Virus record (IMG/VR): IMGVR_UViG_3300030419_006513 | Span: 19,138 to 46,969 of that record | From: a virus | Strand: one strand, 5' to 3' | Length of the DNA stretch: 27,832 bases | Part shown: positions 25,036 through 27,614 of the stretch, in pieces | Numbering within the stretch: the first letter of the stretch is position 1 | Layout of the letters: every line of letters begins with the position of its first letter | The notes under the pieces: model-generated | Databases searched by the model: none | Told to the model about the DNA's origin: nothing | The model's input: only the letters and a program-made list of their open reading frames with translations | Position numbers and translations under genes: made by a program

Positions 25036-25054
25036 ATTATCCTCTTATTAGTTA

Positions 25055-25138
25055 TACCCAAGGAGGGACTTGAACCCTCACGCTCTTATGAGCAACGGAT
25101 TTTAAGTCCGTTGTGTCTACCAATTCCACCACTTAGGC
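25055..25138 (-). tRNA. tRNA-Leu (UAA)
   Basis: An 84-base class II tRNA: acceptor GCCTAAG/CTTGGGT (with G-U pairs), D-arm 'TGGTGGAATTGGTAGACA', anticodon loop CTTAAAA with anticodon TAA (25102-25104), a long variable arm, and the T-arm 'GGGTTCAAGTCCC'. The CCA end is not encoded, so the host must add it. UUA is a favoured Leu codon in this AT-rich genome. It is transcribed directly after the tmRNA. Confidence 0.95.
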
Positions 25139-25144
25139 AAAAAA

Positions 25145-25497
25145 TGGTGGAGGCGGGGGGAGTCGAACCCCCGTCCACAGCAGCTTAGATTAGAGTCATT
25201 CACAGGCTTAGTTTATTTTTTCTAAAACAAACAAAAATAAACGGATAACCACCACGCTTACCGTTATAGGCGTTCCACCCCGGAGGGGGACCAATTTCAG
25301 CTTTGTTCTTTTCGTTGGAGCTACCCACTTAGCTTCTCTTGGTTAGATGGTTTGAAGCGACCACCCGATTAAGCCGCTAAGGCTACTTCGAAATGATTGT
25401 TGTTATTTGCAACTATTGTTTTTGAACTTTTAAGGTTGTATCTTACCTACCTGCACTCGTCCTCCGAGTTCTACCCTGTCGAAACCATTGCGCCCCC
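25145..25497 (-). ncRNA. ssrA: tmRNA (SsrA), one-piece, encoding tag ANNNNHFEVALAA
   Basis: A one-piece tmRNA of about 353 bases. The 5' end is GGGGGCGCAATGGTTTCGAC and the 3' end CGACTCCCCCCGCCTCCACCA, pairing as a seven-base acceptor stem with the G3-U70 pair used by alanyl-tRNA synthetase. The T-arm and an encoded CCA are present. The resume codon GCA is at 25410-25408 and the tag frame ends with TAA at 25371-25369. The tag ends in -ALAA, the usual ClpXP degron. It rescues stalled ribosomes. Carriage by a phage is uncommon. Confidence 0.93.
25369..25410 (-). other. tmRNA tag reading frame
   Basis: GCA AAT AAC AAC AAT CAT TTC GAA GTA GCC TTA GCG GCT TAA encodes ANNNNHFEVALAA. The four consecutive Asn and the H-F-E centre are unusual, while the C-terminal ALAA is the conserved protease signal. 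Confidence 0.88.
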
Positions 25498-25498
25498 T

Positions 25499-25561
25499 TT
25501 ATTTACAGCAACATTCACACCCACAAGGTGCGTTGCAGCCACAGCATTCACATTTTTCCAT
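25499..25561 (-). CDS. Nine-cysteine micropeptide, metallothionein-like
   Basis: The complete product is MEKCECCGCNAPCGCECCCK: 20 residues with nine cysteines (C4, C6, C7, C9, C13, C15, C17, C18, C19) as CxC, CC and CxCC clusters. The ATG at 25561 has an AGGAGG ribosome-binding site eight bases upstream. It lies between the UV endonuclease stop and the tmRNA: the stop codon ends one base before the mature tmRNA 5' end, so its mRNA must be separated from the tmRNA by processing. The composition would suit binding of Zn, Cu or Cd by thiolate clusters. Family membership cannot be proven at this length. Confidence 0.6.
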   Translation of the reverse strand: MEKCECCGCNAPCGCECCCK

Positions 25562-25582
25562 AATCAAGCCCTCCTACAATAA

Positions 25583-26500
25583 CTAGTTAATACTAAAGTC
25601 TTTGAGATATTTGAAAAGAGCTTGTTCTTTCTTTTTACACTCTAACACAACATCTACCGGTTCGTTGAAATTCTCAAACGGAGTATAATACCAGTCAGAA
25701 TGTGCATTTGCTCGAACTGAACTATCTTCATATCGTTTCTTGGAGTTAGAATGGTGACATTGTTGTTTAACACCACGATTTTGCCATGTCTCACGGGCAA
25801 GATAAAAAGCTTTTTGATAAGTAGAGTCTTGTGGACCTAGGTCATGGTGATGAGAGTCAAATACAATTGGTATACCAGTTGGCTTTGAAACGCCATGATA
25901 TAACATTTTTGTAGAATACATAGAAGCTTTATCGTCATTCTCAACAGTAAGACGTGCTTGCGTATTTGCGTCCAACTTAGAATAGTTTTTGCAGAAACGT
26001 GCCATGGCAATATCATGCTCACCGTATGCACCACCGACATGAATATTGATTTTAGCTCGGGGGGATGCTGGTAGACCCATAAGATCCATCTGAACTGAAT
26101 GTGCATTGAGTTCTGCGATAGTTTTTGCAACAGTTGCATCGTTTGGAGATGCAAGACAATTAAAAGGACCCGGATGGAACGATAAACGTTGACCAGCATC
26201 CATAGCAATTTTACCAGCAGAAGCCATTGTGTCAGCAATAGCGTCAATATCTGGTAGATCGAAGATATCATACTCAGACATCCACGGAAACAAACATGAA
26301 GTCATACGATATACAGAAATACCATTTGCATTATTCCATTCGATGATTTTTTTAAGGGCACGTACATTTGAAAGTGCAATCTCAGAAGCATATGGGACAC
26401 CTTTTGCTTTGAAAGTGCGTTTGATCATACCACGATTGCATGATATTTTTTGTTTTTGTAGTGCCATGTTGATACAGGCATAGCCAAGATTGATAGACAT
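25583..26500 (-). CDS. uvsE: UV-damage endonuclease (UVDE/UvsE)
   Basis: A protein of about 305 residues. It has 'INLGYACINMALQKQKI', 'NVRALKKIIEWNNANGISVY', 'YRMTSCLFPW', the metal-site 'RLSFHPGPFNCLASPN', 'INIHVGGAYGEHD', 'ARLTVENDDKASMY' and 'GIPIVFDSHHHDLG'. This His/Asp/Glu set in a TIM barrel is the UVDE family, which nicks DNA 5' to UV photoproducts. I use ATG 26500 (GGAG six bases upstream) instead of 26527. A repair enzyme of this kind fits a surface-water phage. It leads the stretch holding the micropeptide, tmRNA and tRNA. Confidence 0.92.
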   Translation of the reverse strand: MSINLGYACINMALQKQKISCNRGMIKRTFKAKGVPYASEIALSNVRALKKIIEWNNANGISVYRMTSCLFPWMSEYDIFDLPDIDAIADTMASAGKIAMDAGQRLSFHPGPFNCLASPNDATVAKTIAELNAHSVQMDLMGLPASPRAKINIHVGGAYGEHDIAMARFCKNYSKLDANTQARLTVENDDKASMYSTKMLYHGVSKPTGIPIVFDSHHHDLGPQDSTYQKAFYLARETWQNRGVKQQCHHSNSKKRYEDSSVRANAHSDWYYTPFENFNEPVDVVLECKKKEQALFKYLKDFSIN

Positions 26501-26562: not shown

Positions 26563-26895
26563 TTATTCTTTCATTGACTTAGAGCCACGGCACTTCCATT
26601 TCTTTCTAGATAAGTCGTTTGCACAGGGAGGATTCTTGCATTTTTTAATCTTAGCTGATCTAGCACAATATGCATCACCTTTCTTAGTTCCGGGTCTAAT
26701 TCTAGCCCCGCCATCTTTTGCTTTACCTGCTTGACCGTAAGATCTGCATCTACCATTCACTCTTTTAACGAACTTCTTGCCCTTTGCTTTCTTGCAAGGC
26801 TTTTTCTTTTTTTTCTTTTTTTTCTTTTTTTCCGCCAAGACAGCTTTAAGTTCTTCAGCAATGATTTTTCTGAGTTCTGATTCAGTTATATTCAT
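26563..26895 (-). CDS. Lys-rich basic protein with shared N-terminal head
   Basis: A protein of about 110 residues. The head 'MNITESELRKIIAEELKAVL' is nearly identical in plan to that of the next gene. Ten consecutive lysines follow (residues about 28-37), then a Cys-containing basic part ('RVNGRCRSYGQAGKAKDGG', 'RIRPGTKKGDAYCARSAKIK', 'CANDLSRKKWKCRGSKS'). The 'PGTKKGDAYCARS' and 'LSRKKWKC' stretches recur in marine-phage proteins. The ATG overlaps the upstream stop (ATGA) and has AGGAGG nine bases away. It is probably a packaged or DNA-binding protein. Confidence 0.72.
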   Translation of the reverse strand: MNITESELRKIIAEELKAVLAEKKKKKKKKKKPCKKAKGKKFVKRVNGRCRSYGQAGKAKDGGARIRPGTKKGDAYCARSAKIKKCKNPPCANDLSRKKWKCRGSKSMKE

Positions 26896-27614
26896 TTCTT
26901 TTTGCCTCCTTTCTTGCCCCATTTTTTACCTTTTCCTCGACCTTTGCATGCTGATGGGGTTGGCCTACATGCAGGGTATTTCTTGCGTTTCTCACCCTTC
27001 GAGCGGCCACAAGACTTGTAACCACCTTTGCCATCCGGAGCATTACAGTCGACCCAGCCACCTTTGCTTCCTTTGGCGCCTTTTCGTTTAAACCAGTCTC
27101 TTAAATTAGTTTCAGAACTAGGTTTTTTTGTTAATTTTCTTTTGCGCTTTCGCTTTTTCTTTTCTTCAATTTTTTTTTTAACTTCGATTTCTTCGCCATC
27201 ATCTAAGATATAATCACCATCTTCGTGTTGGCCAACATTTTCCATGGATTTTAAAATATCTTTAATTTCTTTTTCTGATGCATCATCGATAGCTTTTAAG
27301 AAAGGATCCAGTCCAGAGGCTCCGCCTTCATCTTTCAATACTTTTTCGATATCTTTTCTATCGACAGATTCGTTCTTCTTGCTTTTATTGCCCCAGTTCT
27401 TGGCGCCTACTTTTCTGCATTTAGAAAGGGCACCAGAAGCATATGCAGATGGCCAAACTTTATATCGTGATTTAACTTTATGATAACATGCATCTCTTTT
27501 GGCTTTCTTTTTTGCCTTTTTCTTTCTTTGTCGTTTCGAGCCTTTCTTCTCGTCGAGAATTTGCATAAGCTCTTCAACAATTATTTTTCTAAGTTCTGAT
27601 TCTGATATTTTCAC
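26892..27614 (-). CDS. DUF5872-like basic protein with shared N-terminal head
   Basis: A 240-residue protein. The head is 'MKISESELRKIIVEELMQIL' followed by a D-E-K-K, and is amphipathic. A basic segment 'KRQRKKKAKKKAKRD' leads to 'CYHKVKSRYKVWPSAYASGA' and 'LSKCRKVGAKNWGNKSKKNE', the pattern I associate with DUF5872. An acidic middle follows (about 95-150), then 'LRDWFKRKGAKGSKGGWVDC' with 'YKSCGRSKGEKRKKYPACRP' and a Gly/Lys-rich end. The GTG start has a GAGGA site and overlaps the upstream stop (GTGA). It is likely a virion-internal, nucleic-acid-binding protein, by analogy only. Confidence 0.74.
   Translation of the reverse strand: MKISESELRKIIVEELMQILDEKKGSKRQRKKKAKKKAKRDACYHKVKSRYKVWPSAYASGALSKCRKVGAKNWGNKSKKNESVDRKDIEKVLKDEGGASGLDPFLKAIDDASEKEIKDILKSMENVGQHEDGDYILDDGEEIEVKKKIEEKKKRKRKRKLTKKPSSETNLRDWFKRKGAKGSKGGWVDCNAPDGKGGYKSCGRSKGEKRKKYPACRPTPSACKGRGKGKKWGKKGGKKK

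Follow-up and report, generated by a model that had tools for sequence, protein, structure and literature searches.

What does a frame of 20 residues, nine of them cysteine, contribute to a virus when it ends at the very edge of a tmRNA gene? The window, the whole 27,832-nucleotide stretch analysed here, is part of a 67,031-base virus record that also encodes a PhoH-like protein, a late-sigma-like factor and Hsp20. The initial annotation of the window drew attention to this frame and saw in it either a metallothionein-like peptide or a leader whose cysteine codons sense cysteine shortage beside the rescue RNA. The locus raises three questions: whether the frame is a gene, whether its place before the tmRNA has a meaning, and what its product would do. 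Its features are as follows.

25054–25139, minus strand: tRNA-Leu (anticodon taa), downstream of the tmRNA (ARAGORN and Rfam RF00005)
25145–25497, minus strand: tmRNA (ssrA) with tag ANNNNHFEVALAA (ARAGORN and Rfam RF00023, 113.5 bits)
25499–25561, minus strand: micropeptide ORF MEKCECCGCNAPCGCECCCK, translated as 20 residues with nine cysteines, ATG start and TAA stop
25570–25575, minus strand: Shine-Dalgarno sequence AGGAGG, with an 8-nt spacer to the ATG of MEKCECCGCNAPCGCECCCK (from the sequence)
25583–26500, minus strand: uvsE, UV damage endonuclease, upstream (Pfam PF03851, UvdE, E=2e-53; phrog_8420)

Translation and sequence bear out the peptide as first described: 20 residues, 45% cysteine, arranged in CxCC, CxC and CC clusters with one CCC, behind an AGGAGG site. 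The same AGGAGG lies 8–9 nt before the ATG in the related loci L002, L003, L007 and L022. The stop codon occupies 25499–25501, so that a single base separates it from the 5′ end of the tmRNA at 25497, again as described, and 21 nt separate the uvsE stop from the ATG. As to the single transcript that the initial annotation envisaged for uvsE, peptide, tmRNA and tRNA, a scan between uvsE and the tRNA revealed no terminator-like site on the ORF strand and no promoter-like sites above chance. An Rfam tmRNA_permuted match over the ORF was discarded, as it is due to the shared tmRNA 5′ domain and the window tmRNA is not permuted. Elsewhere in the window (26563–27614, minus strand), two adjacent lysine-rich ORFs have an N-terminal stretch in common (ITESELRKIIAEEL and ISESELRKIIVEEL); the pair looks as if it were duplicated or as if it carried a common sorting or assembly signal.

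Short ORFs are abundant, and the frame might be a product of chance, or of a constraint on non-coding sequence, its cysteine-rich reading being incidental. The window alone contains 382 tiny ATG ORFs, 17 of them with a Shine-Dalgarno-like motif. Among its most biased tiny ORFs, MEKCECCGCNAPCGCECCCK is the sole cysteine-rich one, and the probability of at least nine cysteines in 19 codons at the base composition of the window is about 2e-9, in keeping with the initial view that such a content is unlikely to be accidental. Comparative evidence, which points the same way, weighs more against chance than this composition p-value. By searching through uvsE, blind to the peptide, we obtained 21 loci. 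A tmRNA adjoins uvsE in three of them, and all three have a Shine-Dalgarno-led, cysteine-rich frame in between:

L003, between uvsE and the tmRNA: peptide MEKCECCGCNPPCSCKCC
L007, between uvsE and the tmRNA: peptide MKCKCCECCACECEKCC
L022, between uvsE and the tmRNA: peptide MEKCKCCNCKCC

Loss of the frame in relatives that keep uvsE and ssrA, which had been put forward as grounds for rejecting the gene, was thus looked for, and the frame was found retained throughout these loci. In L099, MKKCNCCECCKCECSNCC likewise precedes a tmRNA, with what we take to be a GMP-reductase-like gene upstream, not uvsE. The gap between peptide and tmRNA, 1 nt in the window, is below 10 nt in the other tmRNA loci. 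A match of L024 to a 23-base pattern was dismissed as chance, there being no small ORF at the site.

Pattern scans extended the comparison beyond these loci. The first scans combined a Shine-Dalgarno sequence, an ATG and CxCCxC patterns; a strict pattern was then defined at codon level as GGAG-N6-12-ATG-N0-6-K-C-[K/E/D/N]-C-C-x-C. In IMG/VR, the strict pattern occurred in 63 stretches, and in 56 of these the match is an ORF of at most 30 codons with at least 35% cysteine, whereas a control with valine codons of equal base composition returned three stretches and no tiny valine-rich ORF. Applied to bacterial and archaeal genomes totalling 257 Gb, the same pattern gave 20 stretches and two tiny cysteine ORFs, L161 and L149, the latter in a Flavobacteriales MAG and possibly on a phage contig. 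A script counted L157 as a third such member; it reads only 'MC' and was rejected as an artefact.

Selection on the amino-acid sequence was assessed in 30 disjoint nearest pairs, matched in length and at least 60% identical, with the codons fixed by the search pattern excluded; a pN/pS over all codons was dropped, as part of these codons are fixed by that pattern. The pairs yielded 34.5 synonymous (S) and 40.5 non-synonymous (N) changes, where 20% synonymous change is expected without selection, corresponding to a pN/pS of 0.29 (p=6e-7), so that the test for purifying selection proposed at the outset was positive outside the searched codons. Cysteine was retained at 110 of 110 paired positions outside the searched motif, although all carriers in this test have at least 35% cysteine and these limits favour cysteine retention somewhat. 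In the 20-residue peptides, A11, P12, C13, C15, C17, C18, C19 and K20 are invariant in nine of nine, third bases vary at most of these positions, and the cysteine codons switch between TGT and TGC. A ribosome-binding site 8 nt from the start, together with evolution biased to synonymous change, is what a protein-coding gene would show. From these comparisons we regard MEKCECCGCNAPCGCECCCK as a real gene, conserved at the amino-acid level. An origin by chance or from non-coding constraint is extremely improbable for the window and, judged by the selection and pattern-scan data, already refuted at the level of the family.

The family comprises at least 78 non-identical loci and at least 60 distinct peptides of 11–24 residues, about half cysteine, in at least about 31 downstream contexts, a count made after a few clearly unrelated, cysteine-rich chance frames had been removed by hand. 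Among its members are MEKCECCGCNAPCGCECCCK, MEKCKCCNCKCC and MCKCCKCCNCTCCE, and large carrier records mostly hold a single copy. Across 49 distinct peptides, cysteine makes up 52% of residues without Met1, followed by K, E, N, D, G, S and T; the members were gathered by their cysteine motif, so this composition is partly selected and divergent members or those with fewer cysteines are missed. The cysteine number is six, eight or nine, apart from a single case of seven, and the cysteines lie in arrays of the CxCCxC(C) type whose spacers are mostly Lys, Glu, Asp, Asn, Ser, Thr and Gly. F, Y, W, H, L and M are absent after the start Met. Outside the motif, hydrophobic, aromatic or histidine residues account for 5 of 250 non-cysteine residues, all of them I or V, where random codons would give about half; the remaining 245 are polar, Gly, Ala or Pro.

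No entry in Pfam, PHROGs, NCBIfam or the PDB matches the cysteine peptides, and at about 20 residues kinship may be undetectable. A tblastn search of MEKCECCGCNAPCGCECCCK against an annotated phage collection gave no match, an expected outcome since the low-complexity filter was active, and no prior description was found in the literature on phage metallothioneins and small cysteine-rich phage genes, of which our coverage is incomplete. The nearest annotated relatives of the studied loci, all distant, are T4-like phages of Synechococcus, Prochlorococcus and Pelagibacter, from which we infer a marine origin. No ORF of the family pattern was seen in the annotated T4-like Pelagibacter phage HTVC008M, Syn1, S-CAM1, S-SZBM1, C48C1 or a 642-kb uncultured record, matches in C48C1 and S-SZBM1 being single background matches that were excluded, and no cultured carrier emerged from this set of annotated T4-like phages, which have the same gene neighbourhoods. 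As judged from these searches, the peptides are a widespread, unannotated family found almost only in viruses.

The tmRNA setting is one context among many. Of 11 contigs in which the tmRNA begins with the same 5′ sequence, eight have no cysteine ORF ahead of it; such absences are weak evidence because IMG/VR contigs are often fragments, and one of the contigs, L134, ends just past the tmRNA start. Other genes found downstream of the peptide encode a cytidylyltransferase, a PD-(D/E)XK exonuclease, IscU, an IscA-type protein, and a structured RNA with tRNA-Asn. The initial annotation had attached a functional meaning to the adjacency of peptide and rescue RNA. The comparison does not support this idea, as close homologues precede other RNA and protein genes: the tmRNA is a neighbour of MEKCECCGCNAPCGCECCCK and no functional part of the cysteine-peptide family. 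Several contexts are listed here.

L002 3280–3390, minus strand, and L067 7812–7910, plus strand: RNA (about 95 nt, beginning GCGCTGTTCTGCTCGC) between the cysteine peptide and, usually, tRNA-Asn
L200 3577–4050, plus strand: tiny cysteine ORF directly before IscU (PF01592), then IscA
L320 290–337, minus strand: tiny cysteine ORF directly before an IscA-type gene (PF01521)
L161 1501–1551, plus strand, from an archaeal MAG (Diapherotrites): MKCKCCCCCCECKQKK, followed after about 130 nt by a class-V aminotransferase gene resembling IscS/NifS

The RNA of about 95 nt follows the peptide, mostly of the 20-residue type, in at least 13 loci, occurring also in L052, L179, L191, L205, L267, L294, L298, L300, L306 and L315; in these phages the tmRNA, where found, is 2–3 kb away. 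Base changes in its last stem preserve pairing (CCGGTT/AACCGG versus ACGACTT/AAGTCGT in L300), and a run of T often comes after this stem. It has no Rfam match, and its folding energy alone is no better than that of shuffles. We regard it as a new, conserved and apparently structured RNA.

Two further types of cysteine-rich ORF were encountered. Small proteins with a motif close to CxxCxC[DN]PC[DE]CxW occur near the cysteine peptide, uvsE or the tmRNA:

L088 7666–8109, plus strand: second-type protein whose start overlaps the stop of the tiny peptide (ATGA), with no Pfam match
L227, near its end: second-type protein
L322, 5592 onward: second-type protein
L003 5271–5550: second-type protein
L013 89–254: second-type protein
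L139 1248–1380: second-type protein

Separately, a Shine-Dalgarno-led, 48-residue ORF with 38% cysteine (MNKKCNCCKCAEVIGCDCGCGC...) lies in a Bacillota MAG (L151 80–226, minus strand) and is perhaps a bacterial metallothionein.

What, then, would the peptide do? The best explanation, and in our judgement a probable one, is a metallothionein-like, metal-thiolate peptide made during infection and acting in trans. The metal-thiolate part is favoured because the composition matches that of metallothioneins, with cysteine clusters, polar spacers and no aromatics. The trans-acting part rests on the contexts: at least about 31 of them argue for a diffusible product rather than a cis sensor beside the rescue RNA. 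The latter alternative, in which ribosomes slow on the cysteine codons when Cys-tRNA is scarce and so alter expression of the next gene, draws on members with a sulfur or Fe-S gene immediately or shortly downstream (L200 with IscU, L320 with an IscA-type gene, L161 with an IscS-like desulfurase), and short gaps or start-stop overlaps (L170, L088) would permit translational coupling. These three loci are exceptions, however: the window has a tmRNA downstream, and most contexts, such as tmRNA, tRNA-Asn, cytidylyltransferase and exonuclease, have no cysteine theme, while coupling is inapplicable to a tmRNA, a tRNA or a structured RNA. Nor does an attenuator before the tmRNA fit into gaps of 1 nt in the window and under 10 nt elsewhere; no terminator-like site was found on the ORF strand, and folding of the leader region does not exceed that of shuffled sequence (z=+1.43). 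Selection on the cysteine codons alone would leave the other residues free, yet 245 of 250 fall within the polar, Gly, Ala or Pro set and A11, P12 and K20 are invariant. The codon-sensor idea of the initial annotation is weakened accordingly by constrained non-cysteine residues, the missing leader structure and the lack of room for an attenuator, and we consider it unlikely. Described polycysteine leaders of mycobacteria and uORFC-8-2 resemble the phage ORFs in being short, in having many or tandem cysteine codons and in sometimes lying near a sulfur-related gene; the phage peptides differ in their canonical Shine-Dalgarno sequence, their constrained non-cysteine residues and a downstream gene usually unrelated to cysteine, with no terminator or leader structure at the peptide. 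In uORFC-8-2, which precedes cysS, the conserved cysteine codons are only two, in tandem, and a terminator follows (PMC8632094). MKCKCCCCCCECKQKK of L161 could nevertheless be a real cysteine-sensing leader.

Two other trans-acting roles were weighed, each of which we think improbable. A sulfur or Fe-S relay, in which the peptide would carry a persulfide or nascent cluster, or protect one, for phage or host Fe-S assembly, is suggested by its position directly before IscU–IscA in L200 and before IscA in L320, the two virus contigs in which it adjoins such assembly genes (IscU/NifU_N, IscA/HesB). In addition, 6 of 50 carrier records contain an IscA-type gene (PF01521), compared with none of 50 non-carriers, but five of the six belong to one context (cytidylyltransferase) and are not independent, so the link from whole records comes mostly from one lineage and serves as a lead only. 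The peptide has no homology to IscU or IscA, most tested carriers lack these genes, and both are absent from the record of the window and from all tested carriers with the structured-RNA or tmRNA context. An attack on a protein of the host or of a defence system, such as removal of Zn from a zinc-ribbon protein or exchange of disulfides, would agree with the near restriction of the peptide to viruses. Phages carry many small host-takeover proteins, and exposed CC pairs compete strongly for zinc and exchange thiols readily. Against it, no target is indicated, the same pattern recurs in contexts that are unrelated, and most non-cysteine positions tolerate change, which suggests no specific protein interface.

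The metallothionein-like reading fits the make-up of the peptides, which are small, very rich in cysteine in CxC and CC clusters, without aromatics and with polar or charged spacers, so that the composition first noticed in MEKCECCGCNAPCGCECCCK (45% cysteine) extends to the family. They match no described metallothionein family in Pfam, NCBIfam, PHROGs or the PDB. Metallothioneins are defined by composition and binding, not by common descent; a peptide may therefore act like one without such a match, and 20 residues may be too few for detection. Bacterial SmtA, BmtA and MymT and the small fungal copper metallothioneins, roughly 22–60 residues long, share with the phage peptides a very high cysteine content, CxC, CC and CxCC clusters, a lack of aromatics and polar or charged spacers. 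The phage peptides, in contrast, are 11–24 residues long, about half cysteine, with CCxC and CCC runs, viral, and with no detectable sequence relation. Counted against the reading are that bacterial metallothioneins less often contain CCC and CC runs, that IscU and IscA, the only metal-related families tested there, are absent from the genome record of the window, and that peptides so short may degrade fast.

In the metallothionein-like reading, the ORF would be translated as a phage gene during infection, and the peptide, in reduced form inside the infected cell's cytoplasm, would wrap a small metal-thiolate cluster. Nine cysteines would be an appropriate number for a Zn/Cd cluster of three metals or for a cluster of Cu(I). 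The peptide might then buffer or sequester a metal such as Zn or Cu, or one related to them, and would incidentally buffer thiol redox; translation, metal binding, the identity of the metal and the benefit to the phage are what we infer here. On a broader reading, which we consider evenly poised, the peptides would form a virus-specific class of smallest metallothioneins (11–24 residues, about half cysteine) that controls the metal or thiol chemistry of the infected cell in many phage lineages and was overlooked by gene finders for its length.

Whatever their chemistry, these loci indicate that pattern, together with evidence of synonymous change, allows conserved genes of 11–24 codons to be identified from DNA alone. 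If they bind metal, the peptides would be the shortest natural metallothioneins known to us, and they would represent a widespread phage function in zinc, copper or thiol chemistry that has been overlooked because annotation skips genes this short.
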